Shown here piece after piece: positions 4,831 through 21,712 of a stretch of DNA of 64,000 nt; position 1 is the stretch's first letter; each line of letters opens with the position of its first letter. The position numbers and the translations under genes are program-made. The notes under the pieces are model-generated. The model was not told the DNA's origin. It did no database searches and worked only from the letters and a program-made list of their open reading frames with translations. Source of the DNA: Colwellia sp. (GTDB lineage: Bacteria > Pseudomonadota > Gammaproteobacteria > Enterobacterales > Alteromonadaceae); assembly GCA_026196955.1 (NCBI GenBank), contig JAPHTO010000033.1, forward strand, positions 1 to 64,000. Direction: 5' to 3'.

Positions 4831-5367
4831 TTATTTGCTTACTTTACGACGAGCAGCAAAAGCAACTAAGCCAGTTAGTAATAATATTAAAGCGCTAGGC
4901 TCTGGAACAACAGCCGCTTCGCCAAAAGATAAGTCATCCATAAACAATACGAAAGCAGGATCAGGTTGTACCCAGTTGTCAAAAATATCGATATAACCAC
5001 CGAAACCAGCTTCAACAAAGCCATTCCATAAATACCAACCGTATACATCATCTAAATCAAATGCAATTGTTTGAATACCAGCATATAAGTCCATCATGTC
5101 GTATTCAGCAAAAAATTGCTCACCCATTTCATTATCCATAGGCGCTGGAGCTAACATATCAATACCAAAAAATTCAAATTCTTCCCATACTCGTACTTGA
5201 CCTAGACCAAAACCGACATCTTCAGTTGTATCTAAGTTGATAGATATATGGCCAATAACACCTTCTGAATCAGAGATGATATCTTGAGTAATTAATGTAG
5301 CATTTGCCATACCTGTAAAGGCAAGCGAAAGAGTTAAAACAACGCGTAAAACTAATTTATTTAACAT
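4831..5367 (-). CDS. PEP-CTERM sorting domain protein
   Basis: A 178-residue exported protein of unknown function. Residues 1-23 form a signal peptide (ending MANA). The C-terminus is a textbook PEP-CTERM tail: VPEP at 154-157, a hydrophobic helix LILLLTGLVAF, then AARRK. Known family biology: exosortase (EpsH/XrtA type) recognises the tail and processes the protein for surface or exopolysaccharide association. The exosortase itself is not in this window. The middle is acidic and rich in aromatic residues with no motif I recognise. A good AGGAAG ribosome site precedes the ATG. A sigma54-like promoter lies about 65-80 bases upstream, and the gene ends in its own terminator, so it is monocistronic. 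Confidence 0.88.
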   Translation of the reverse strand: MLNKLVLRVVLTLSLAFTGMANATLITQDIISDSEGVIGHISINLDTTEDVGFGLGQVRVWEEFEFFGIDMLAPAPMDNEMGEQFFAEYDMMDLYAGIQTIAFDLDDVYGWYLWNGFVEAGFGGYIDIFDNWVQPDPAFVLFMDDLSFGEAAVVPEPSALILLLTGLVAFAARRKVSK

Positions 5368-5430
5368 GTTACTTCCTATTCTATTTGTTATTAAATTTTA
5401 AACTGCAAAAAAATTGCGACAATTCTTTAA

Positions 5431-5446
5431 AGCAAAATTTGTTCCT
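5431..5446 (-). promoter_or_regulatory. Sigma54-type (-24/-12) promoter of the PEP-CTERM gene
   Basis: The minus strand carries GGAAC-A-AATT-TTGCT (5431-5445), close to the RpoN consensus GGCACGNNNNTTGCT, with exact GG-N10-GC spacing. Transcription would start near 5420, giving a leader of about 50 bases. Sigma54 control with the PrsK/PrsR regulators is established for PEP-CTERM/exosortase genes in other bacteria; its use here is inferred. Confidence 0.6.
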
Positions 5447-5593
5447 ATATTTTTTTTGTATTAAAAACCAAGGAGTTAACAATTAAAAAATAAAAACGCA
5501 ACATGGATTTAACATATAAATTAATTTGTGTAAAAAAATACGACACTGCTCAACCAGACACAAACAGCTACAAAAACAATTAGTTATTAATGC

Positions 5594-6385
5594 CTATTCA
5601 TCTTGTTGTTTGGAAAAGTCAGCATCATGCTTATTATCACCAACAACATGTTCTAATTTTATTTGCTTCACAGATCTAAATGTTGTCACAGGACCTGAAC
5701 AAGCATAAAGCACAAAAATTCCCATTAATAACTCAGCCGGACTTGAAGCAACAATAACAAAAACAAGCACAATTAATAGCACAGCAATAAAATTAACTTT
5801 GCCTTTCCAATCAACTTCTTTAAAGCTGTTGTATCTGAAATTACTCACCATTAGCAAGCCACTAACAATGGTAATTATGCCCATAATAAAACCGTAATCA
5901 TGGCCAATAAGTTGATACTCAGTACCAACCCACACAGTGCTAGCAATGACACCTGCTGCGGCTGGACTGGCAAGTCCTTGAAAATACCGCTTGTCCGCCA
6001 CTCCCACCTGAGTGTTAAATCGTGCTAAACGCAAAGCAGCGGCTGCAACAAAAACAAAAGCAGCCAACCAACCAAACTTCCCTAAATCAGAAAGTGCCCA
6101 ATTGTAGGCAACAATCCCGGGCGCAATGCCAAACGACACCATATCCGCCATTGAGTCATATTCAGCACCAAATTCACTTTGCGTATTGGTCATTCTTGCA
6201 ACACGACCGTCTAAACCATCAAAAATCATAGCGATAAAAATAGCGATAGCTGCACTTTCAAAGTGTCCATTCATCGAAGAAACTACCGCATAAAAGCCTG
6301 AAAAAAGCCCTGCCGTTGTTAAAAGATTTGGCAGTAAATAGATCCCTTTGCTGTTCGAATTATCTAAATTTTGTTTACTTGTCAT
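5594..6385 (-). CDS. pssA: CDP-diacylglycerol--serine O-phosphatidyltransferase
   Basis: An integral membrane enzyme that makes phosphatidylserine from CDP-diacylglycerol and serine, the precursor of phosphatidylethanolamine. The CDP-alcohol phosphatidyltransferase signature DGxxAR-x8-Gx3Dx3D is complete: D59, G60, A63, R64, G73, D77 and D81. At 263 residues with several membrane helices it is of the multi-spanning PssA type, not the soluble phospholipase-D-like enzyme of E. coli. The C-terminal 25 residues are hydrophilic and charged. It is transcribed alone, divergent from the DUF4124 gene. Confidence 0.92.
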   Translation of the reverse strand: MTSKQNLDNSNSKGIYLLPNLLTTAGLFSGFYAVVSSMNGHFESAAIAIFIAMIFDGLDGRVARMTNTQSEFGAEYDSMADMVSFGIAPGIVAYNWALSDLGKFGWLAAFVFVAAAALRLARFNTQVGVADKRYFQGLASPAAAGVIASTVWVGTEYQLIGHDYGFIMGIITIVSGLLMVSNFRYNSFKEVDWKGKVNFIAVLLIVLVFVIVASSPAELLMGIFVLYACSGPVTTFRSVKQIKLEHVVGDNKHDADFSKQQDE

Positions 6386-6503
6386 AACTTATTTGTCATA
6401 AAGGTTAAAAAACTAATTGAATATATTGCTAATTTACCATAAGTTGAATTTACAGATAAAGTACTCTTATACTTAAGTCAATAATTAGTCATAAGGAATT
6501 ATT

Positions 6504-6965
6504 ATGAATATTCGCCATTCAGCGCCGATATTTTTTTTGGTTGCTGGGATTTTAAGTACGAATGTCATAGCCAAGAACATTGCTATTTATCGATGGGTTG
6601 ATGAAAATAATGTCGTTCACTTTAGTCAACATCAACCAAGAGACGACAATTATTCACAATTAACAACTATTGCTTCTTATAATGCCAAAGAAAGAGAACA
6701 ACCCGAGCAGAAAAAAGCAATGCCTTCTGTTAGAGAGCAAATTGCAAGACATGAAAAAGAACAAGCTGAGATAAACGCAAAAAATAAAGAGATCACAGAA
6801 AACAACTGTAAAGCAGCACAACTGAATATGAAAATGTTGAATTCATTTAATCAAATAATGACAACTGATGCTGATGGTAAAAATAGACTCTTAAGCGATA
6901 AAGAAAAAAAAGAACAACTTGAACTCAGTAAAAAGCATACTGATCTTTACTGTAAAAAAAGCTGA
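6504..6965 (+). CDS. DUF4124 domain-containing exported protein
   Basis: A 153-residue protein with an N-terminal signal peptide (about 1-23) followed directly by a DUF4124 motif (IYRWVDENNVVHFSQHQP, about 27-45), which is typical of small periplasmic proteins of unknown function in gammaproteobacteria. The remainder is highly charged and predicted helical (repeated E/K/Q). AAGGAATT provides a ribosome site before the ATG. It is followed by a 12-bp hairpin and converges on clpB. Confidence 0.8.
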   Translation: MNIRHSAPIFFLVAGILSTNVIAKNIAIYRWVDENNVVHFSQHQPRDDNYSQLTTIASYNAKEREQPEQKKAMPSVREQIARHEKEQAEINAKNKEITENNCKAAQLNMKMLNSFNQIMTTDADGKNRLLSDKEKKEQLELSKKHTDLYCKKS

Positions 6966-6980
6966 CCATTCAATAAATAA

Positions 6981-7014
6981 AGTAATCGCCAACTATTTTA
7001 CATTGGCGATTACT
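6981..7014. terminator. Hairpin between the DUF4124 gene and clpB
   Basis: Perfect 12-bp stem AGTAATCGCCAA / TTGGCGATTACT with a 10-base loop, between the stop codons of two convergent genes. There is no T-run on either side, so it is a weak bidirectional terminator or an mRNA 3'-end stabiliser. Confidence 0.55.
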
Positions 7015-7021
7015 CACATGC

Positions 7022-9592
7022 TTATTTAAACACTAACTCTTCATTGTCTACATCCAGTCTAATAGTTTTGCCTGCACTGTACTTTCCTGCAAGTAACTGA
7101 TGTGCTAATGGGTTTTCCATTCCTTGTTGAATAGCACGCTTTAATGGCCTTGCACCAAATACTGGATCGAAGCCCGCTTTCGCAATCAATGCCAACGCTT
7201 CTTTAGCAACAACTAAGCTAAGATCTTGCTCAGCTAAACGTTCTGATAGACTTTGTATTTGTATCTCAGCAATTTTTTCTATTTGCTGTGCAGCTAACGA
7301 ATGAAAAACTACCGACTCGTCAATGCGGTTAATAAATTCAGGTTTAAAGTGGCGAGACACTTCTGACATTACCTGAGCTTTCATTTGTGCGTATTGGCTA
7401 TCATCACTAAATTCTTGAATGATGTCAGAGCCAATATTTGACGTCATAATAATAACAGTGTTTTTAAAATCTATCGTACGACCTTGACCGTCAGTTAATC
7501 GACCATCATCAAGAACTTGCAGTAAAATATTAAAAACATCACTGTGAGCCTTTTCGACTTCATCTAATAGTATGACTGAATAAGGTTTTCTACGCACAGC
7601 TTCAGTTAAGTATCCACCTTCTTCATACCCCACATAGCCAGGAGGCGCTCCTACTAACCGCGCAACTGAGTGCTTTTCCATAAACTCAGACATATCAATT
7701 CGAATGAGTGAATCCTCACTATCAAAAAGAAAGTAAGCTAAAGCTTTGGTTAGCTCAGTTTTACCAACGCCAGTAGGGCCTAAAAATAAGAAGGAGCCGA
7801 TAGGCTGGTTTGGATCTGCCAGACCTGCTCGTGAACGTCGAATAGCGTTTGATACTGATGTTACTGCCTCACCTTGACCAATAACACGTTGATGTAATTC
7901 ATCTTCCATGTGTAGCAACTTATCACGCTCTTGCTCTAACATTTTTGCAACAGGAATACCGGTAGCCCGACTTAACACATCGGCAATTTCAATATCGGTT
8001 ACTTTATTTGCAAGTAAACTCATCTCTTGCATTTCGGCTTGGCTGGCTAAATCCAACTGTTTTTCAAGCTCAGGCAACTTACCATATTGCAGCTCAGACA
8101 TTCGGTTTAAGTCACCGCTTCTGCGTGCCGCTTCTAAATCAATACGCGCTTGCTCTAATTCTTCTTTAATCGTTTGCGTACCATACAAAGCAGCTTTTTC
8201 TGTCGTCCAAACCTCATCCAACTCATCATATTGCAGCTGCTTCTCCTGAATTTTATCTAAAATTTCTGCTAAACGTTTTTTTGAAGCCTCATCTGAATCT
8301 TTTTCTAACGCTCTTTGCTCTAACTTTAATTGGATTAAGCGGCGTTCAAGTCTGTCTAGATCTTCTGGTTTTGAATCCATTTGCAAACGAATACTTGATG
8401 CCGCCTCATCAATCAAGTCAATAGCTTTATCAGGTAATTGTCTGTCACTTATATAGCGGTGCGATAAGGTAGCCGCAGCAACAATAGCGGGATCAGTTAT
8501 ATTAACTGAATGATGTAATTCATAGCGCTCTTTTAGGCCACGTAAAATAGCAACCGTATCTTCAACACTTGGCTCATCCACTAAAACTTTTTGAAAGCGA
8601 CGCTCTAATGCCGCATCTTTTTCAATATATTGTCGATACTCATCTAAGGTTGTTGCGCCGACACAATGTAAATCTCCTCGAGCAAGCGCAGGCTTTAACA
8701 TATTGCCAGCGTCCATGGCACCGTCTGTTTTCCCAGCGCCGACCATAGTATGAAGCTCATCAATAAATAAAATCACTTGCCCTTCTTCTTGTGCAAGCTC
8801 ATTTAATACGGCTTTTAAACGCTCTTCAAACTCACCTCGATATTTTGCCCCTGCAACTAACGCTCCCATATCTAATGACAAAACGCGCTTGTTTTTTAGC
8901 CCTTCAGGCACTTCATGATCAACAATACGTTGTGCTAACCCCTCAACAATGGCGGTTTTACCTACACCGGGCTGACCAATTAATACAGGGTTATTTTTAG
9001 TGCGGCGTTGTAAAACTTGCAAGGTTCGACGAATTTCATCATCACGGCCAATCACAGGATCTAACTTGCCCTGCTCAGCTCGCTCAGTTAAATCAACAGT
9101 AAATTTTTGCAGCGCTTGACGAACGTCTTCTGCGTTTTGTTCATCCACTTTTTGTCCACCTCGAATATGTTCAATGGCGGCCTTAATACGCTCTTCATTA
9201 GCACCAAGTGAGGCAAGGATTTTACCCAATAGCCCTTTATCTTCTATAGCGGCTAATAAGAACATTTCCGACGAGATATATTTATCTGACATTTTCTGTG
9301 CATGCTTATCACACAAATTAAGCAGCCTGCCTAACGCACCAGACAATTGCACATCACCGTCATGATCTTGTATTTGTGCTAATGATGTTAATGCTTGCTC
9401 AATTTTTACGCGAAGCGTATGAACATCGATTCCTGCACTTTTAAGCAAGGGAATAATCGAATTTCCATTTTGATTAAGCAAAGCCAACATTAAATGAACC
9501 GGCTCTATAAATTGATGGTCTCGCCCCACAGCCAAAGACTGTGCATCGGCAATTGATTCTTGAAAGGATTGAGTAAATCGGTCTAAACGCAT
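7022..9592 (-). CDS. clpB: ATP-dependent protein disaggregase ClpB
   Basis: The hexameric AAA+ chaperone that rescues aggregated proteins together with DnaK. At 856 residues it is essentially the length of E. coli ClpB (857). Order of parts: N-terminal Clp_N repeats (1-145); AAA-1 with Walker [10 protein letters not shown] (Lys212) and Walker [10 protein letters not shown]; the ClpB-specific middle coiled coil (about 405-525); AAA-2 with Walker [10 protein letters not shown] and Walker [10 protein letters not shown]; and a C-terminal D2-small domain. The gene follows pgeF on the same strand after a 131-base gap that contains a heat-shock-like promoter. The rluD-pgeF-clpB order is as in E. coli. 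Confidence 0.98.
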
Positions 9593-14032: not shown

Positions 14033-14614
14033 ATGCTTACAATCACACCCACTAGTGTGAGGGCATTTACCCTCATTGAATTAATGATTTCAATCTCTAT
14101 CACTGCAATCCTAGCTGCAATCGCCATTCCTAATTACAGTGACTTTATTGTTCAGATGCGTGTTGATAACGAAATATCCCAATTACACCGTATGCTGCTT
14201 ATCACTAGAAATGCTGCGATTAATAGTGGACTCCCTACAACTCTATGTCCATTGAATGAGCAACAGCAGTGCAATAGTCAATGGCAAGAAGAACTAAGCG
14301 TATTTATCGATCTAAATGATAATCAGAGGTATGATCCCCAAAGCGGAGAAAAACTGCTTAGAGTAAAAAGTCCAATCATGCAGAAAGATAAATTGCAATA
14401 CGGAATAGGTAGAACACGGATCAAGTTTGCACCAACAGGAAGAACAATAGGTTGGGGTAGTAATGGAACTTTTCGATATTGCCCCAACGATCATCAACAA
14501 GCCTCTAGAGCCATTAGAGTTGCCACCTCAGGCCGATTTTATTTGAGTACCGATAGTGATAATGATGGTAAAGATGAGTTGCGCAACAACAGCGAAATAC
14601 GCTGTAGGGTTTAG
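14033..14614 (+). CDS. GspH/FimT family pseudopilin (copy 1)
   Basis: A 193-residue minor pilin. A leader peptide is followed by the class III pilin cleavage and helix motif AFTLIELMISISITAILAAIAIP (processing before F12, Glu at mature position 5). The globular part shows the GspH/FimT pattern ending in a conserved cysteine/Gly-rich region. Two acidic loops (DLNDNQRYD and DSDNDGKDE) look like calcium sites. The conserved core RVDNEISQLHR is shared with the next gene, so the two arose by tandem duplication. FimT/FimU proteins are minor pilins that help initiate type IV pilus assembly. The gene lies near the pilV-pilE operon but on the opposite strand. Confidence 0.85.
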   Translation: MLTITPTSVRAFTLIELMISISITAILAAIAIPNYSDFIVQMRVDNEISQLHRMLLITRNAAINSGLPTTLCPLNEQQQCNSQWQEELSVFIDLNDNQRYDPQSGEKLLRVKSPIMQKDKLQYGIGRTRIKFAPTGRTIGWGSNGTFRYCPNDHQQASRAIRVATSGRFYLSTDSDNDGKDELRNNSEIRCRV

Positions 14615-14698
14615 TATATAAACTAGCCAAATAAGCTGTTTACTGGTATAAATAATGGTACATATAAGTAATGTGCGTAAGTTGCACAAGGTTGTCTT

Positions 14699-15283
14699 AT
14701 GTCTCGAATTTTTTTAGCTAAATTTAAGCATCCCCAGCAAGGCATCACCATTATTGAATTAATGGTATCTATTGCAGTTTTAGGTATTATCACCGCCATT
14801 GCCATGCCTAGCCTCAATCAATTCTTAGCGGGTATGCGTGTTGACAATGAAATTTCTCAGCTGCATCGTTTAATTTTATCCACCAGAAATACTGCGGTCA
14901 GCAAGGAACTAAATGTAACTTTGTGTCCATTAGATAATACGAACACTTGTAGCAATAATTGGGATCAAGAGCTTAGTGTATTTATAGATATAGATGGAGA
15001 TAATATATATGAACCAGCAACGAATGAAATATTAATAAAAGTTAAGCAAGGAATCAGAGCAAATGACACTTTAACTTATGCTGGTTTTAATCGTATTACC
15101 TTTGCGCCAACAGGACAACTAACAGCTGCCTTAAATAGCACCTTTATTTATTGTCCTCAAGATAATGATGATTTAGCCCGTGCCATATACATTAGTGCTT
15201 CAGGTCGCGCTTATCAAAGTTCAGACATAGACAGTGATGGAACTGAAGAAGATAGAAATGGCAATCCAATAGTCTGTCCCTAG
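14699..15283 (+). CDS. GspH/FimT family pseudopilin (copy 2)
   Basis: A 194-residue paralogue of the preceding gene, 84 bases downstream. The prepilin motif is GITIIELMVSIAVLGIITAIAMP (cleavage after Gly; Ile at mature position 1 in place of the usual Phe). RVDNEISQLHR, LSVFID and FAPTG are shared with copy 1. Two calcium-type loops are visible: DIDGDNIYE and DIDSDGTEE. It converges on the tapY2-like gene with only three bases between stop codons. It is probably a second tip or priming pilin; specialisation of the two copies is unknown. Confidence 0.85.
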   Translation: MSRIFLAKFKHPQQGITIIELMVSIAVLGIITAIAMPSLNQFLAGMRVDNEISQLHRLILSTRNTAVSKELNVTLCPLDNTNTCSNNWDQELSVFIDIDGDNIYEPATNEILIKVKQGIRANDTLTYAGFNRITFAPTGQLTAALNSTFIYCPQDNDDLARAIYISASGRAYQSSDIDSDGTEEDRNGNPIVCP

Positions 15284-15286
15284 CAT

Positions 15287-15670
15287 TTAATAGGGTATAT
15301 TTAAGAATAATTGTTTAGCTCTTGCCCCTTTAAACTTTTCATTTAGTGGCACACATTCTTTCACCTTATAAATTGCGCGAGGAGGCTCCCCCTCTTCCAA
15401 TTTTACTTTTTTCTTTAATAGAATATGAGTAAGTTTTTTAAGGCTTTTATATGGTGTATTGGTAAATTGAATAGTTTCACCCCCACCGATAAGCTCAACA
15501 TGACACTTCATCTCTATATCCACAATTTCAACTTTCTTTGCTTTACTCTTACTACTAACACTAGCATTAGCATGTGCTTCAACATGAGTAATTAATGTTA
15601 AGCAACATACTGTTAATATTAACGGGGAAAATAAGTTTACTTTTCTAAAGGATTTGAATTTAGTCTTCAT
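15287..15670 (-). CDS. TapY2-like type IV pilus-associated exported protein
   Basis: A 127-residue protein with a signal peptide (about 1-33). The conserved part has two cysteines (MKCHVEL and KVKECVPL) and ends in a KFKGARAKQL helix. This pattern resembles TapY2, a small protein found at the end of minor-pilin operons in Shewanella and relatives; the identification is from memory of the family, not a search. It starts two bases after the pilE-like stop codon, so it is the last gene of the pilVWXY1E operon. Its role in pilus assembly is not established. Confidence 0.6.
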   Translation of the reverse strand: MKTKFKSFRKVNLFSPLILTVCCLTLITHVEAHANASVSSKSKAKKVEIVDIEMKCHVELIGGGETIQFTNTPYKSLKKLTHILLKKKVKLEEGEPPRAIYKVKECVPLNEKFKGARAKQLFLNIPY

Positions 15671-15671
15671 A

Positions 15672-16100
15672 TCATTGTCTCCAACATGCTGCAGGCAATT
15701 TTTGCCCTGCTTCGTTAACGGTCAAAGCGGTACATCCTGCATCACTTGTTTGAGCGCCTTGCGCAGTAGCAGTTAAAATAAAAGTCGAACCACCATTCGC
15801 TATGGTGGCATCGATGCTGTAATTATTGTATTCAGTAATGTGAGGGTCATTAGCCATACCTAAATCTGTCATATTAGTAGTATACGAACGACGATCAATA
15901 AATGTTTCCTCTTGTAAATTAGCAAGACGCAACAACTCTCGTTGTCCTTCAGCCCGATTTGAGGTCAAGACGAAACTAGTGTATGAGGGGTAAGCAACGG
16001 CAGCCAAAATGCCAACAATGGCAACAGCTATCAGCAACTCAATTAAACTAAAACCTGTATTCATATTTAACTTCATTGGCATTATAGTTTTTTCACCCAT
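15672..16100 (-). CDS. pilE: Type IV minor pilin PilE
   Basis: A 142-residue pilin. The prepilin motif TGFSLIELLIAVAIVGILAAVAYP is followed by a short globular domain with the ComP/PilE-type C-terminal disulfide pair (AGCTALTV and PAACWRQ). The ATG at 16100 has AGGAA about ten bases upstream; a GTG nine bases earlier sits on top of that ribosome site and is unlikely. A shorter leader starting at MKLNMNTG is possible. In this operon context (after pilY1) it is the minor pilin PilE, not the major subunit. Confidence 0.87.
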   Translation of the reverse strand: MGEKTIMPMKLNMNTGFSLIELLIAVAIVGILAAVAYPSYTSFVLTSNRAEGQRELLRLANLQEETFIDRRSYTTNMTDLGMANDPHITEYNNYSIDATIANGGSTFILTATAQGAQTSDAGCTALTVNEAGQKLPAACWRQ

Positions 16101-16121
16101 AGCATTCACTTTCCTTAAAAA

Positions 16122-19100
16122 TTACTCTCTGATATATAAATATGTACGCATTGTTTCAACTTTTACCCCTGAGCAATTTTGTGTTGCATCACATAAAACT
16201 ATGACGTCAGGAGCAATAATTGCGAAATCTTTCGGTGGCGGATCATTAGGATCAACTGGTGGCTCTCCCGGTCTTGGAATATATGGCACGGTGATAAATG
16301 TAGGATCACCTGGTGGGTTGTAGCCTATAAATACTTTCCGCCAATCATAAATAGTGGTACCAAAAGATAAGTCAACCGCATACAAGCTAGCAGCACCCTC
16401 AAGTAAGGTACAATCATCAACATCTTCAGTTGATGCGGGGGTAAAAGAATTAAAATATACAACACCTGCAACTACAGCGCCCTTAGCCATACTTTTCTCA
16501 CCTGTACCAGCAAAAGTAATATACCATCCTGACTTTTCAGTGGCATCAAGTAAATGATTCAACTGTTCAGTGGTTAAATCCGCTGTATTTTCAGGTAAGT
16601 CTTGTAATGGGTTATCGGTATAGTCCTTTAAATCACCAATAACAATAGCTGCAGGAACATCAACGCCAACCATTGATTTCGTCATGATATTCTTATCTTT
16701 TATCATGAAGAACTTATCATCAGTATCAATTCCAATAGGATTGGTTCGATCACCACTACCCAGTAAAACAGCGTCAAAGGGTATATCAAATTGATCTATA
16801 GTGAATTCCCCCGTTTCATCACCATTTTCATCTAAAACTTCAGTTCTTACTGTTTGAGTAATTGATGCCCTAGCAATAACTGGTTGACTAAAAAAACGCC
16901 TATCCGTTAAGTTAGTATTACCACCTAAACTAGCCAGCTTCACTGCTGTCCAAGGATAAGTAGCACTATTAGGGTTATTTCCTGGCATATCAACTCGCCA
17001 TACATTTCCGCCAGTATCACCAGCATATAATCTGTCAACTAAGCCATCAGAGTCACTGTCAAGCGTAGCTATTCGAGACGGTATACTATCCACACCTGAA
17101 AAATAAGTGTTAGTTCCACTTTGCGCGCCTGGCGTTAAACTCCACTTTAAGGTGCCTGTTTCTGCGTCTATCATGAAGATACCACGACCAGTAAGGTCAT
17201 CAGCTCCAACACCCGCGTTATCCTTTATGGTTGAATACCCAGCACCAATAAAAAGTACAGGTTTTGGCGTACCATTGCTAACATTAATAGCAGAGTAGCC
17301 AACTTTAGCTTGTGACCAAGATTGTGCCATTTCACTGTAACCTTCACTATTACTGTCAATATGCCACATCAGTCTAGGACTATCTGGTGTTGTTACATCA
17401 ATAGCATAATAAGATGATCCACCTCGACGCAAACCAATAAAAATCCAGGCTTTATCACCGTCAGCACTATTAACAGAACCATCGCCATTAGTATCTAAAA
17501 TATAGGCCGTGGCTGAACCATCGAAACCATAAACCTTATCTGAAGAAGAAAAGTTATCTCGCAACTCTGTAATTTTAGAAAAAAACTCTACAGGCATAAA
17601 AGACCAAGTTTCATCAACCGTAGCGCCATTATCATCAAACATATGCAGAAATCCCGCATTAGTTCCAACGATGATACGCACATCTTGATCTGCTTTATTA
17701 CCACCATAATTGATGACTAAAGGTTTAGAATGTAATGGGTCACCAAAAACATCGTAACGAATATCAGTAATACTGCCATCCCCATCTTCATCATCAACAT
17801 CTATACCTAAATTCCAGTCAAAATAGGTTTGTGCATCATCAACATCAATACCAAGTTTATCTGCAAAATCTTGCTCATTACCGTTCAAAGCTGCATTATT
17901 CAACAAGGCTAAACTACCATTAACACCAATATTGCTATAGATAACACGGTTAGCCTTATTACGTAGCATTTCAGCAATACCACCTTCTTGGACTTCATCA
18001 CCATCAGCTGCGCCAGTAGACCAAAAGGTTTTGGCTTCAGCCTTGATATTACCATCCTCGGAAATAGCAAGTGCATCATCTCGGTCAACTAAACCATCAG
18101 TAGTTACTTGCAGTTTTTTTAAATTACCTTGCCAACGAGGACCTCTATCAGGCAAAAACATTGCATAATAAACAGCATCAAGTGTTTCTGTGCGGTCAAA
18201 ATTATTAGAAGCTACTGAAGGTGAAGTAAAACTTCCATTCACTTCTAAAATTTCAATGAGAGCCGACTGCAACGATGAAAGTAATTTACTTGGATCTTCA
18301 GCATCATAATACTGCCCCCCTCCCAAGTCGGCCGCTTCGATTAGTAATGGCGCAGCAGCTTGAGCACCTGAGCTAAACCCTATGGTATATAAAATAGCAT
18401 GCTGTTCACCATCTACATTGGCATTGATGTCATTGCTATTCATCCAACCAGCTAAAGCGGGTAAATAATTACCATTAAATTTCGGGGTGATACCTGGTAG
18501 ATTAGAGATATAATCATCTGCGGCTTGGTCTCTTGTTGGCACACCATCAGTTATCATAATCACATAAACATCATTAGCACATCCTGTAAAAGGAGTAATA
18601 TAAGTACCTTGATTTTCTATCGAGGTGTCTCTTGGCGGTGTATTACCTCGGTATGCATTTCCACGGTTAGAATCATTATCTCCAAAATCTACCGACAAAC
18701 CGCCAAAATAACGTCTTGCTTCATATAAGGTTTCACATAAAGGTGTATTAGTTTCACCATCAACATCATCTTGAATAATATCAACTAGTTCCTGCCTAGC
18801 TGCTAAGTCCATATTTTGAATACCAAAAACTACACGTCCACCATCACGAACATACTCACCTTGGTAATTATGGTTAAATATTTGCAACCCAAAATCTACG
18901 CCAGGGGCTGACTCAATTAAATTTGTTATGGTATTTTTAGCTATCGTTAAGCGACTTTCATTAATAGCCCCTATATCGCCTATATTCGCTTGTGCCCAAC
19001 GTAAATAATTATCAGTATATAGGGTAACAACTTCTCCTGAACCTAAGTTAGTATTAGAATTTGCAGCACTAGCAGTATAATAGTCTGGATTTTGTTTAGT

Positions 19101-19664
19101 CCCCTCACCATCAACAGGGTAACCATCAGGCAATGGAATAATATTCCCTCCTTGCCCCTCAACACCTGCATTATCTGGATTTTCAAGCAAAACATCATCT
19201 AAACAATCAATGACTTCGATATTTGCACCATTATTTTCAGGTATCTCTTGCCAACTGCCCGAGTTCCCTTGAAAACGGTATTCGCGAATATACCCCGTAT
19301 AAAAACCAACAGAATCAAGCTTTTCTCTTGCAGTAGCACAACTGTTAATTGTATCTAAAAATCGGCGCTGCTCGTTTGGGCTATCAGGCACGAGTAAGGA
19401 GTTATCAACACCAGCTCCTTTAGTAAAATAAATAAATTTATCTGATAATGAATTAAAACCACCAACAGCGGGGTAAATTTCATTAGGATCATAAGGAGCT
19501 TTAATCTCTTCAGTAGTATTCATACTACCAGAATTATCAAATATTATAAGTACTTGCGGCTTACCACCAGCATTTTGTGCAGAATTACCAACATATAACT
19601 CAATATCTTCAGCACGGCTAATACTTGACAGTATTAGCAGACTTGTTAATAGTAACTTTTTCAT
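16122..19664 (-). CDS. pilY1: PilY1/PilC-type type IV pilus tip adhesin
   Basis: A 1180-residue exported protein. It has a signal peptide (1-18), then an N-terminal von Willebrand A-like domain with the metal-ion-dependent adhesion motif DNSGS (Asp43, Ser45, Ser47) and a later DGVPT. The C-terminal half is a PilY1-type beta-propeller (IIVGTNAGFLHMFDDNGA, WIFIGLRRGGSSYYAID). Acidic DxDxDG loops suited to calcium occur at DEDGDGS, DTNGDGS and DSDSDGLVD. PilY1 regulates pilus extension and retraction, surface attachment and mechanosensing. The start is the ATG at 19664, behind GGGGG and one base after the pilX stop codon, indicating coupled translation. Confidence 0.93.
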   Translation of the reverse strand: MKKLLLTSLLILSSISRAEDIELYVGNSAQNAGGKPQVLIIFDNSGSMNTTEEIKAPYDPNEIYPAVGGFNSLSDKFIYFTKGAGVDNSLLVPDSPNEQRRFLDTINSCATAREKLDSVGFYTGYIREYRFQGNSGSWQEIPENNGANIEVIDCLDDVLLENPDNAGVEGQGGNIIPLPDGYPVDGEGTKQNPDYYTASAANSNTNLGSGEVVTLYTDNYLRWAQANIGDIGAINESRLTIAKNTITNLIESAPGVDFGLQIFNHNYQGEYVRDGGRVVFGIQNMDLAARQELVDIIQDDVDGETNTPLCETLYEARRYFGGLSVDFGDNDSNRGNAYRGNTPPRDTSIENQGTYITPFTGCANDVYVIMITDGVPTRDQAADDYISNLPGITPKFNGNYLPALAGWMNSNDINANVDGEQHAILYTIGFSSGAQAAAPLLIEAADLGGGQYYDAEDPSKLLSSLQSALIEILEVNGSFTSPSVASNNFDRTETLDAVYYAMFLPDRGPRWQGNLKKLQVTTDGLVDRDDALAISEDGNIKAEAKTFWSTGAADGDEVQEGGIAEMLRNKANRVIYSNIGVNGSLALLNNAALNGNEQDFADKLGIDVDDAQTYFDWNLGIDVDDEDGDGSITDIRYDVFGDPLHSKPLVINYGGNKADQDVRIIVGTNAGFLHMFDDNGATVDETWSFMPVEFFSKITELRDNFSSSDKVYGFDGSATAYILDTNGDGSVNSADGDKAWIFIGLRRGGSSYYAIDVTTPDSPRLMWHIDSNSEGYSEMAQSWSQAKVGYSAINVSNGTPKPVLFIGAGYSTIKDNAGVGADDLTGRGIFMIDAETGTLKWSLTPGAQSGTNTYFSGVDSIPSRIATLDSDSDGLVDRLYAGDTGGNVWRVDMPGNNPNSATYPWTAVKLASLGGNTNLTDRRFFSQPVIARASITQTVRTEVLDENGDETGEFTIDQFDIPFDAVLLGSGDRTNPIGIDTDDKFFMIKDKNIMTKSMVGVDVPAAIVIGDLKDYTDNPLQDLPENTADLTTEQLNHLLDATEKSGWYITFAGTGEKSMAKGAVVAGVVYFNSFTPASTEDVDDCTLLEGAASLYAVDLSFGTTIYDWRKVFIGYNPPGDPTFITVPYIPRPGEPPVDPNDPPPKDFAIIAPDVIVLCDATQNCSGVKVETMRTYLYIRE

Positions 19665-19665
19665 G

Positions 19666-20154
19666 TTAACCCCCAATATTCAAGAGTTGCTGTGCGACAC
19701 CAGCATTGACCTGAACATTACTTGTATTAGAGCGACCGTATAATTTATTTGCTTGAACTCTTAGAACATTACATTTAAATACTGCTGTAGAAGATGCTAA
19801 TTTTGAATGGGGGCAATCAACAACTAAACTATTAGTATTTACCGTGGTGATATTGGCTGTGGTGTTTGGTGATGTAACCACAGCATTCATTGAAATAGGA
19901 AATTGCGAAGCGGTAAAAGCGTTAGTATTTCCCTGTATTTGAGCGTAAACAACTTCATCTATCGAGCTTATCGCTTCCTGAACAGCATTAACCTTAACCT
20001 GACTACTACCTGACATTTTCATATCTGAACTTGTATTTAACATTAGTGCAGAAGCTACCGCCGTTAAAGCAACCAAAAAGACTAATGAAACTATCAGCAC
20101 CACACCTTGTTGCAATTTCTTTGTTTGAGGTAAATTGTTAATTTTTATGGCCAT
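19666..20154 (-). CDS. pilX: Type IV pilus minor protein PilX
   Basis: A 162-residue PilX-family minor pilin. A short leader ending QQG is followed by the hydrophobic helix VVLIVSLVFLVALTAVASALML, which lacks the Glu5 of classical pilins as PilX/GspK-type proteins often do. Then comes MKMSGSSQVKVNAVQEA, the usual PilX_N motif. It overlaps pilW by ten bases and is one base from pilY1. PilX belongs to the VWX-Y1 tip/priming complex. Confidence 0.85.
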   Translation of the reverse strand: MAIKINNLPQTKKLQQGVVLIVSLVFLVALTAVASALMLNTSSDMKMSGSSQVKVNAVQEAISSIDEVVYAQIQGNTNAFTASQFPISMNAVVTSPNTTANITTVNTNSLVVDCPHSKLASSTAVFKCNVLRVQANKLYGRSNTSNVQVNAGVAQQLLNIGG

Positions 20155-21107
20155 GTATCAACCCTCGCGTTATATAGCGTTACTGTAGTGGTAAAAAGTA
20201 ATCGACGATAATTATCATTCACAACAACAGGTAAATCACCTAATTGATAGGTATTTGTATTGGTATAGTTGTTATCAGGTAAAATATCACGTGCTAACAC
20301 ATAAATTTTTACCGCTAAAATATTACTATTATTCTTATTCCAGAAAGCTTGAGTCATATTGTTCGCTGAAATAAAAGCATCAACATCGCCATCATCATCG
20401 GCATCAACCCCATACATAAAACGTATTACCTCTATACCATCAACCAAAGGGCTAAAGGACATACCATTATTTACAGAGAGTACTCCTTGCATTAATACGG
20501 GTACTGTCGCTGCACCCTGTGCCTCATTGCGAATATAATAAACATGATGTTGATATTCCCAAACTCGACCATTACTCACAAAAGGAGGTGCAGCAGCACC
20601 AACACCAGAAAACAAAGTTCCTGTGGTGGTGTTGGTATTCAAAAAATACTGGGTAACATCAGTCGCCCCCACAATAGGAATTGATAGTACTCGCTTTAAC
20701 TGTAATATATCAGAACCCACGCTAGCATCAGCTATGCACCCCATTGCATTGGTATTAGCAGCCGTCATCCCCCATATGCTACGAAAATAACCTACGGCTT
20801 GAGGAAATGAAGCATTGTTTATACCTTGGCCAACACAATCCGGCCCAGCAATAACGGGAATAGCACTTAAGCTATTTGCTGTAAGCTGACTAGGCATATC
20901 TCCCCAAAAGCCTTCACGTAATAAGTCATCCGTTAGTACACTGAGAACAAAGCGACCATTTTCTTGTAAAGTCCCAGCACTACTGGTTTCTGAACTAGTA
21001 GTTTTCAAGCCAACAAAAATACTCAGTACACCAGCAAATAGCACTAAACCAACAGCCAATGAAATAAACAACTCTAATAAGGTAAAGCCTTTCTGATAAT
21101 TATTCAT
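20145..21107 (-). CDS. pilW: Type IV pilus assembly protein PilW
   Basis: A 320-residue minor pilin with the prepilin motif KGFTLLELFISLAVGLVLFAGVL near the N-terminus and the PilW-type continuation NGRFVLSVLTDDLLREGFWGD. The C-terminal part contains GVDADDDGDVDAF, a DxDxDG calcium-type loop. The ATG at 21107 follows GGGTGAG; an ATG five codons earlier has no clear ribosome site. It follows pilV after about 20 bases. Confidence 0.88.
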   Translation of the reverse strand: MNNYQKGFTLLELFISLAVGLVLFAGVLSIFVGLKTTSSETSSAGTLQENGRFVLSVLTDDLLREGFWGDMPSQLTANSLSAIPVIAGPDCVGQGINNASFPQAVGYFRSIWGMTAANTNAMGCIADASVGSDILQLKRVLSIPIVGATDVTQYFLNTNTTTGTLFSGVGAAAPPFVSNGRVWEYQHHVYYIRNEAQGAATVPVLMQGVLSVNNGMSFSPLVDGIEVIRFMYGVDADDDGDVDAFISANNMTQAFWNKNNSNILAVKIYVLARDILPDNNYTNTNTYQLGDLPVVVNDNYRRLLFTTTVTLYNARVDTWP

Positions 21108-21127
21108 ACTCACCCTAAACATAGTCT

Positions 21128-21712
21128 TTAAAAAATAAACGCCTGAATATGCACTTGTCTTCGCTGATCATTCGCTGTACCACAAGTAGTGTTTGTGGCA
21201 AAGTTTGCATCATTAGCCGCACCATCTTGCGTTCTAGTTCGTCCTTGCCAACTCACAGTAATAGTCACGGCATTATTACTCTCGGTGATACAACCAATAG
21301 CATTAATTAAACCACCAACATTTTGCCCATCAGCTGTAGTATCAGCCCCTCGAAGAGATTGTGTCCATTGATATAAATCATTAGCTACCATTTGCGCTGA
21401 TGTACACAATGCTCCTGGTGTATTACAAGCAGGTACAGGAGGGTCACCTGGGTCAGTACCACCATAAGTACCTACATAAGTAGGTAAAATAGCAGTGATA
21501 GGATTAGCATCATTACTTCGCATTTTTTCTATAATATCTTGCGCTAAACTTGAAGCTATTGAGCGCTGCATGGCATCAAAACTACCTTTTTTTGCAGTGG
21601 CTTGCATAGCAACCGCACCTAAAATACCGGTAACCATAATAACCAAAGCAATGAGCACTTCAATAAAAGTCATGCCTTGCGCTTTTTTTGAGTAATTGTT
21701 GATTCGCTTCAT
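21128..21712 (-). CDS. pilV: Type IV pilus modification protein PilV
   Basis: A 194-residue minor pilin and first gene of the operon. The prepilin motif QGMTFIEVLIALVIMVTGILGAVAMQ has Met at mature position 1 and the Glu5. Helix continuation and the DIIEKMRSN motif match PilV. Cysteines near the C-terminus (GCI, TTCG) may form a disulfide. It is transcribed with pilW, pilX, pilY1, pilE and the tapY2-like gene from a long upstream region containing a CRP-like site. Confidence 0.88.
   Translation of the reverse strand: MKRINNYSKKAQGMTFIEVLIALVIMVTGILGAVAMQATAKKGSFDAMQRSIASSLAQDIIEKMRSNDANPITAILPTYVGTYGGTDPGDPPVPACNTPGALCTSAQMVANDLYQWTQSLRGADTTADGQNVGGLINAIGCITESNNAVTITVSWQGRTRTQDGAANDANFATNTTCGTANDQRRQVHIQAFIF

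Follow-up and report, generated by a model that had tools for sequence, protein, structure and literature searches.

The type IVa pilus tip cluster described here occupies positions 14033–21712 of a 64,000-nucleotide stretch of DNA from a Colwellia sp. (NCBI GenBank assembly GCA_026196955.1, contig JAPHTO010000033.1, positions 1 to 64,000). This whole stretch, contig C159 of the 3.97 Mb assembly (completeness 95.5%), is referred to as the window. Its tip proteins carry acidic loops of the DxDxDG type, and at least four of them, namely sites 3 and 2 of PilY1, the loop of PilW, and the D-region loop of the second FimT paralogue (FimT2), probably each hold calcium and act as separate structural staples. 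The mid loop of the first paralogue (FimT1) and PilY1 site 1 are perhaps staples of the same kind. The evidence consists of the presence of the loops, their conservation, a spacing of acidic residues beyond that given by composition, the homology of PilY1 site 3 with a solved calcium site, and confidently modelled turns in FimT2 and PilW; calcium binding by the loops other than site 3, and the role of this binding in stability, are what we infer from it.

The initial annotation had quoted seven loop strings from FimT1, FimT2, PilW, and PilY1 together with a metal ion-dependent adhesion site (MIDAS) in PilY1, and all of these were found in frame in the translations of the assigned open reading frames (ORFs). 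As a DNA pattern, DxDxDG had six matches in the window, compared with 0.04 expected from shuffles. Five were in frame, two of them in pilY1 and one each in fimT1, fimT2, and pilW, and the sixth (51360, minus strand) was antisense to a plus-strand ORF. A slightly looser pattern gave 129 matches in the whole genome, many of them on contig C154, against 46 for the reversed control. At the genome-wide density about 0.2 matches would be expected per 7 kb, while the tip cluster includes at least five. The motif is ordinary in this genome, but its density at the tip cluster is not.

Conservation was counted as contiguous D or N at loop positions 1, 3, and 5, with a stricter count adding an acid or Asn at position 9, and identical proteins were counted once. 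The Colwelliaceae group was delimited by hand as the records not titled Shewanella, Pseudoalteromonas, Catenovulum, Gayadomonas, or Paraferrimonas; it takes in unplaced metagenome-assembled genomes and one record titled Endozoicomonas, and the window itself was counted. In the PilY1 tree (FastTree), which took five Shewanella rows only, all 46 rows of the group were placed on one side. FimT paralogues were assigned by their distance from pilE (within 3 kb) and a lone FimT was called FimT2, with a few misassignments possible. The second pilW–pilY1 set of L073, the distal FimT of L043, and the pilW fragments of L071 and L111 were excluded before the counts and models. The papers cited below are cited for individual passages of their text.

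Four loops retained positions 1, 3, 5, and 9 in most orthologues of the Colwelliaceae group: the FimT1 mid loop, the FimT2 C-terminal loop, and PilY1 sites 2 and 3. Site 3 kept both the basic and the stricter pattern in 41/46 proteins of the group and in all 30 Shewanella proteins. By phmmer it aligned with DNNSDGVAD of Pseudomonas aeruginosa PilY1 (3hx6), an EF-hand-like calcium site (PMC13190605), and it conforms to EF-hand-like motif 1; no other PDB sequence matched PilY1 at E up to 1. Site 2 was present in 44 of the 46 proteins (39 with position 9) and in none of the 30 Shewanella proteins, which have a shorter loop at this position; outside the Colwelliaceae group it was also found in L025, L023, and L073. 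Site 1 had positions 1, 3, and 5 in 34/46 proteins of the group (shuffle maximum 9) and in 17/30 of Shewanella.

The two FimT paralogues have four loops, of which the FimT1 mid loop had been overlooked in the initial annotation. It was found in every one of the 29 Colwelliaceae-group proteins, 28 of them with position 9, and in Shewanella the corresponding counts were 2/19 and 1/19. The FimT2 C-terminal loop was nearly as constant within the group (36/38, and 32/38 with position 9) and absent from the 20 Shewanella proteins. The remaining two were more often lost: the FimT1 C-terminal loop was kept in 17/29 proteins (16/29 with position 9; 0/19 in Shewanella) and the FimT2 mid loop in 12/38 (10/38 with position 9; 0/20 in Shewanella). 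Because they are lost in so many orthologues, these two loops appear dispensable.

In PilW the loop was contiguous at positions 1, 3, and 5 in 27/43 proteins of the Colwelliaceae group, and in 18/43 with position 9 included; both patterns were present in all 23 Shewanella proteins. In a class-wide sample consisting of the 30 best loci by the Pfam PilW model, the window's own excluded (n = 29), positions 1, 3, and 5 were kept in 20 relatives. Judged from these counts, the loop is common in its family, and nothing was found that sets the PilW of the window apart.

When the nine residues of each loop were shuffled, no shuffle reached the observed Colwelliaceae-group count for positions 1, 3, and 5 at any of the eight loops. 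The margin was weakest in the FimT2 mid loop (12/38, with a shuffle mean of 3.0 and a maximum of 9). The comparison yields no probability, since the sequences are related and not independent. At PilY1 sites 2 and 3 and in the PilW and FimT2 C-terminal loops, D, N, or E was present at positions 2 and 7 in at most 10/46 rows of the group; the counts of these four loops with position 9 included were also above their shuffles.

AlphaFold2 models were available for FimT2 (110 sequences) and PilW (69 sequences). The FimT2 model had a mean predicted local distance difference test score (pLDDT) of 95.0, and residues 176–184 formed an ordered turn after strand 171–173 with block means of 97 and 96. Its best solved match was P. 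aeruginosa FimU (4ipu; Z 16.5, root mean square deviation (rmsd) 2.3, 135 residues aligned), and further matches included GspH-type pseudopilins of the type II secretion system (T2SS) and Legionella pneumophila FimT (7qyi; Z 10.0, rmsd 3.0, 114 aligned). In the PilW model (mean pLDDT 92.4) the loop was likewise an ordered turn, with residues 241–248 linking strands 230–240 and 249–252 and a block pLDDT of 94–98. A search of the PDB with the PilW sequence gave no match; by fold the best solved match was TTHA1219 of Thermus thermophilus (5g23; Z 13.1, rmsd 2.9, 161 aligned), followed by GspJ-type pseudopilins (Z about 10 to 11). These lists of fold matches do not show the absence of other folds.

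Since PilY1 site 3 is orthologous to a solved site and several other loops mostly keep their acidic positions, it is plausible that a number of tip proteins depend on calcium. Periplasmic calcium, tracking the outside medium, would fill the loops after export, the filling would fix the turn closed by each loop, and the fixed turns would stabilise PilY1 and the PilW–FimT head used in priming the pilus. This mechanism fits the work on Myxococcus xanthus, in which calcium stabilises PilY1.1 and, through PilY1.1, the minor pilins (PMC8833165), as well as the AlphaFold model of Kingella kingae, in which FimT is placed below PilW (PMC12607826). The M. xanthus paper also presents the outer membrane as reportedly calcium-permeable and argues that outside calcium sets the periplasmic calcium. 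Elsewhere, calcium has been found to make P. aeruginosa PilY1 mechanically more stable (PMC11891296) and to stabilise T2SS pseudopilins (PMC5131608, PMC7248040).

Several observations weigh against calcium staples at these sites. Contiguous positions 1, 3, and 5 are lacking in 16/43 PilW proteins of the Colwelliaceae group, the loop being longer in several of them (DTDAPGTAGYGIVN type). PilY1 site 1 is without a regular ligand at position 9, the stricter pattern being present in only 9/46 proteins of the group and 0/30 of Shewanella; in the shuffle comparison it was not above the shuffles (12/46, with a mean of 9.2 and a maximum of 19). In the FimT2 C-terminal loop Gly is only partly kept at position 6 (strict pattern 19/38). 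The closest solved relatives, 4ipu and 5g23, are to our knowledge not known to hold calcium at the loop position. It is possible, though in our judgement rather unlikely, that, with the exception of PilY1 site 3, the acidic loops are Asp-, Asn-, and Gly-rich surface turns without bound metal, kept for hairpin shape or solubility. The abundance of DxDxDG-type patterns in the genome (129 compared with 46 in the control) would agree with such turns, as would the shuffle result for site 1 with position 9 and the basic FimT1 C-terminal loop of about the same length that one clade has (AANKTNTKDVRRTGAKIKC type). However, D and N at positions 1, 3, and 5 are far above the shuffles. In the Colwelliaceae group such residues are rare at positions 2 and 7, and across the class the PilW loop is retained.

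The position of the FimT D-region loop allows another reading, in which calcium controls DNA capture. In both paralogues three residues separate the G[RK]x[RK] motif position from the start of the loop, which stops before the terminal D-region cysteine. The conserved C-terminal G[RK]x[RK] of DNA-binding FimT was not found in the window proteins, which have GRFY and GRAY: the fourth motif position was Tyr in 29/29 FimT1 and 36/38 FimT2 proteins of the Colwelliaceae group (65/67 overall) and Arg in all 19 Shewanella FimT1 proteins. The motif residues bind DNA in several species, the two C-terminal arginines of GRxR contributing to DNA binding in L. pneumophila FimT (PMC8897410) and G[RK]x[RK] being required by Vibrio cholerae FimT (PMC12040237) and likewise by Xylella fastidiosa FimT3 (PMC9956873). 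The loop in a subset of gammaproteobacterial FimT/FimU proteins could then be a calcium-binding element placed directly after the DNA-capturing residues. Once filled, the loop would neutralise the tail and give it order, enabling DNA binding, possibly via the bound ion, and in the Colwelliaceae it would replace the second arginine, now Tyr; seawater calcium would license DNA capture or, failing that, the docking of FimT to PilW at the tip. The median net charge from the motif to the C-terminus of FimT2 (−3 in the Colwelliaceae group and +1 in Shewanella) would be in line with this, as would the ComEC-type protein encoded in the genome, where a search with PF12019 (E up to 0.001) found the two window fimT genes as the only family members. 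We nevertheless consider this reading improbable. The FimT1 tails of the Colwelliaceae group have a median charge of +2 (range −4 to 7; +3 in Shewanella) and an acidic tail is therefore not general; 21 of the 34 loop-bearing relatives in the order and class samples retain G[RK]x[RK] just before the loop, as in GRVRFTKDEDQDGIDEGANGRPLRC, and a Catenovulum relative (L083) has G-R-F-R along with the loop; and DNA binding was absent or very weak in FimU-type proteins, which the window FimT resemble in fold and gene position (PMC8897410).

The initial annotation had further proposed that pilus function could sense or depend on seawater calcium; in the sensing version the tip would switch extension and retraction accordingly. 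One model of P. aeruginosa PilY1 makes it a switch regulated by calcium (PMC13190605 on Orans 2010), but calcium-free PilC mutants of other species had no major loss of piliation (PMC4471445), and the M. xanthus work argues for dependence instead (PMC8833165). The set of loops also varies among relatives. Calcium in the open sea is nearly constant, and for this reason sensing found no support; we regard it as very improbable.

The suggestion that the whole tip may need calcium was borne out in part. The homology of site 3 speaks for it, and PilY1 site 2 and the PilW, FimT1 mid, and FimT2 C-terminal loops mostly retain their acidic positions among the orthologues, where the annotation had proposed to look. 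The tip is not one trait as a whole, because some loops are often lost, site 1 is without position 9, three patterns are gone in one clade of eight, and Shewanella is without the FimT C-terminal loops and PilY1 site 2. Treating the seven strings as a single trait was accordingly rejected, as conservation differs by site. The three patterns missing together, those of the FimT1 C-terminal loop, PilW, and PilY1 site 1, are absent from one clade of eight PilY1 rows (support 89); the PilW states on the tree allowed insertions, and the eight rows were rechecked without them. With 3 to 5 changes per trait, the tree offers too few events for a test of coordination among these losses. The basic FimT1 loop belongs to a Cognaticolwellia-type clade, where it replaces the acidic one. 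In L039, L040, L042, L044, L053, L057, and L086 the FimT1 loop is basic and the acidic patterns of PilW and PilY1 site 1 are missing too.

Two further explanations were discarded. The FimT C-terminal loop is not an invention of the Colwelliaceae, as it occurs across the order and class samples. It recurs patchily, in 19/37 distinct proteins of the order sample (family members included) and 15/89 of the class sample, both of which are biased because they are made of best matches to the queries used (60 regions were hand-picked from the rows listed, skipping rows interrupted by stops and some additional rows of a genome). The strict loop pattern used for these two samples misses some loop-like tails (e.g., L171, L172, and L188). 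Marine life does not explain this loop either, since it is missing from Shewanella, which is also largely marine.

The coordinates of the genes, loops, and motifs are collected in Table 1. The residue numbering of PilY1, the ORF of which is readable from TTG at 19676, starts with the codon at 19661, one after the ATG at 19664. The PilY1 alignment (A1) comprised 15 of the 30 orthologues.

Table 1. Genes, loops, and motifs of the pilus tip cluster, with positions in the window.
Feature	Positions	Strand	Remarks
fimT1, FimT/FimU-type minor pilin (GspH/FimT family)	14033..14614	+	Pfam GspH 51.6 bits, N_methyl 28 bits
FimT1 mid loop DLNDNQRYD (93–101)	14309..14335	+	
FimT1 G-R-F-Y, at G[RK]x[RK] DNA-binding motif position	14531..14542	+	
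FimT1 C-terminal D-region loop DSDNDGKDE (174–182)	14552..14578	+	
fimT2, second FimT/FimU-type minor pilin	14699..15283	+	Pfam GspH 49.2 bits; fold match FimU 4ipu
FimT2 mid loop DIDGDNIYE (97–105)	14987..15013	+	
FimT2 G-R-A-Y, at G[RK]x[RK] position	15203..15214	+	
FimT2 C-terminal D-region loop DIDSDGTEE (176–184)	15224..15250	+	between C152 and C193
tapY2-family small secreted protein, between fimT2 and pilE	15287..15670	-	NCBIfam NF038109 43.8 bits, cut-off 35
pilE-type minor pilin, ORF from GTG, ATG at 16082	15672..16109	-	Pfam ComP_DUS 71.2 bits on 15675–16082
pilY1 tip adhesin	16122..19664	-	Pfam T4P_PilY1 65.5 bits; PDB 3hx6 E 1e-14
PilY1 site 3 DSDSDGLVD (868–876), known propeller calcium site	17034..17060	-	aligned to 3hx6 DNNSDGVAD
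PilY1 site 2 DTNGDGSVN (723–731; quoted DTNGDGS 723–729), extra propeller-domain loop	17469..17495	-	
PilY1 site 1 DEDGDGS (624–630), acidic stretch preceding propeller domain	17772..17792	-	
PilY1 MIDAS-type DNSGS (42–46)	19524..19538	-	D42, S44, S46 invariant in 15-protein alignment
pilW minor pilin	20145..21122	-	Pfam PilW 93.1 bits; AlphaFold2 mean pLDDT 92.4
PilW loop DADDDGDVD (240–248)	20379..20405	-	turn between strands 230–240 and 249–252

The cluster begins with the tandem pair fimT1 and fimT2 on the plus strand, followed by tapY2, pilE, pilY1, pilX, pilW, and pilV on the minus strand. Both FimT paralogues have a GspH domain (PF12019) and a prepilin N-terminus scoring above both cut-offs, and by the fold of FimT2 and their place beside pilV–pilW–pilX–pilY1–pilE they are of the FimU type, with genes on the opposite strand and outside the operon. 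The propeller domain of PilY1 (PF05567) scored 65.5 bits with a cut-off of 28.1, and PilW (PF16074) 93.1 bits with a cut-off of 26. TapY2 exceeded the curated score cut-off of its family (NF038109). The search with PilY1 gave 80 named loci, including those of Colwellia, Thalassotalea, Thalassomonas, Cognaticolwellia, Pseudocolwellia, and Shewanella; pilE adjoins in 69 of them, fimT is present within 3 kb beyond pilE in 60, and two fimT genes in 49, some of the 80 loci stopping short of the fimT position. The search of the genome with the FimT2 protein gave four matches, and among the matches listed are the two FimT of the window. Viral contigs scanned with FimT2 included three pattern matches and no relative.

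Other features of the cluster and the genome were also recorded. A tapY2 match (phmmer) was present in 39 of the 43 Colwelliaceae-group loci with pilE, compared with none of the 21 Shewanella loci, and in the TapY2 alignment of 41 rows K55, C56, C106, and F113 were invariant. ComP_DUS, the Pfam family matched by the pilE-type pilin, takes its name from the Neisseria DNA-uptake-sequence receptor, and on the basis of this match the protein is a possible second DNA-binding pilin. Pseudoalteromonas denitrificans (L073, 2350–13684) has two consecutive pilV–pilW–pilX–pilY1 sets. Among the matches listed for contig C154, those at about 5200–7760 of the minus strand form a dense DxDxDG array, many with a spacing of 39 or 66 bases, a pattern suggestive of a large calcium-repeat protein.

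The calcium part of PilY1 is already known, and most of the loops are family features. So far, tip calcium in type IVa pili has been discussed for PilY1/PilC. In the cited passages of PMC8833165, PMC13190605, PMC4471445, PMC5131608, PMC7248040, and PMC11891296, calcium concerns PilY1/PilC or T2SS pseudopilins. The word is absent from PMC8897410 and present only in the reference lists of PMC12607826, PMC9956873, PMC5542475, PMC10374093, and PMC7541494. The passages of the open literature that were searched made no mention of calcium-type loops in FimT, FimU, or PilW, nor of a calcium role for the PilW loop, which is no proof of novelty. If FimT and PilW also hold calcium, PilY1 may have received sole credit for whole-cell calcium results, and the minor-pilin head would be a further target of chelators. 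The FimT loop offers a concrete way into the question of a metal-tuned DNA receptor in the competence pilus.

Among known systems, the closest is the propeller calcium site of PilY1/PilC (motif 1, Dx(D/N)xDGxxD; 3HX6), to which PilY1 site 3 is orthologous in both sequence and place. The FimT C-terminal and PilW loops share the 1, 3, 5, 9 spacing of this motif, but FimT and PilW are pilins and not propellers. PilY1 site 2 is situated elsewhere in the propeller domain, and the aligned stretch of 3hx6 is without such a motif. For P. aeruginosa PilY1 a second calcium site, DxDxNxxxD, has been described at residues 600–608 (PMC13190605). Compared by description and not by alignment, this site and PilY1 site 1 are both acidic and placed just before the propeller domain; site 1 differs in reading DEDGDGS and in keeping no acid at position 9.

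Among the pilins, the PilW of the window has its Pfam match in common with the PilW family (PF16074) and its fold in common with TTHA1219 and the T2SS protein GspJ. The window FimT proteins share the fold, the D-region cysteines, and the G-R motif with GspH/FimT (PF12019), P. aeruginosa FimU, and L. pneumophila FimT. They differ from the known members in the DxDxDG loop of the D-region, in Tyr as the second residue of the DNA-binding pair, and in being two tandem paralogues that face the pilV–pilW–pilX–pilY1–pilE cluster. In GspG, one of the calcium-stabilised T2SS pseudopilins, calcium helps to fix a loop of the structure. The staples proposed here for FimT2 and PilW would work alike, with calcium helping to fix a pilin loop, although GspG is a major pseudopilin of another family than FimT and PilW and is likened to them by description rather than by a comparison of sites.

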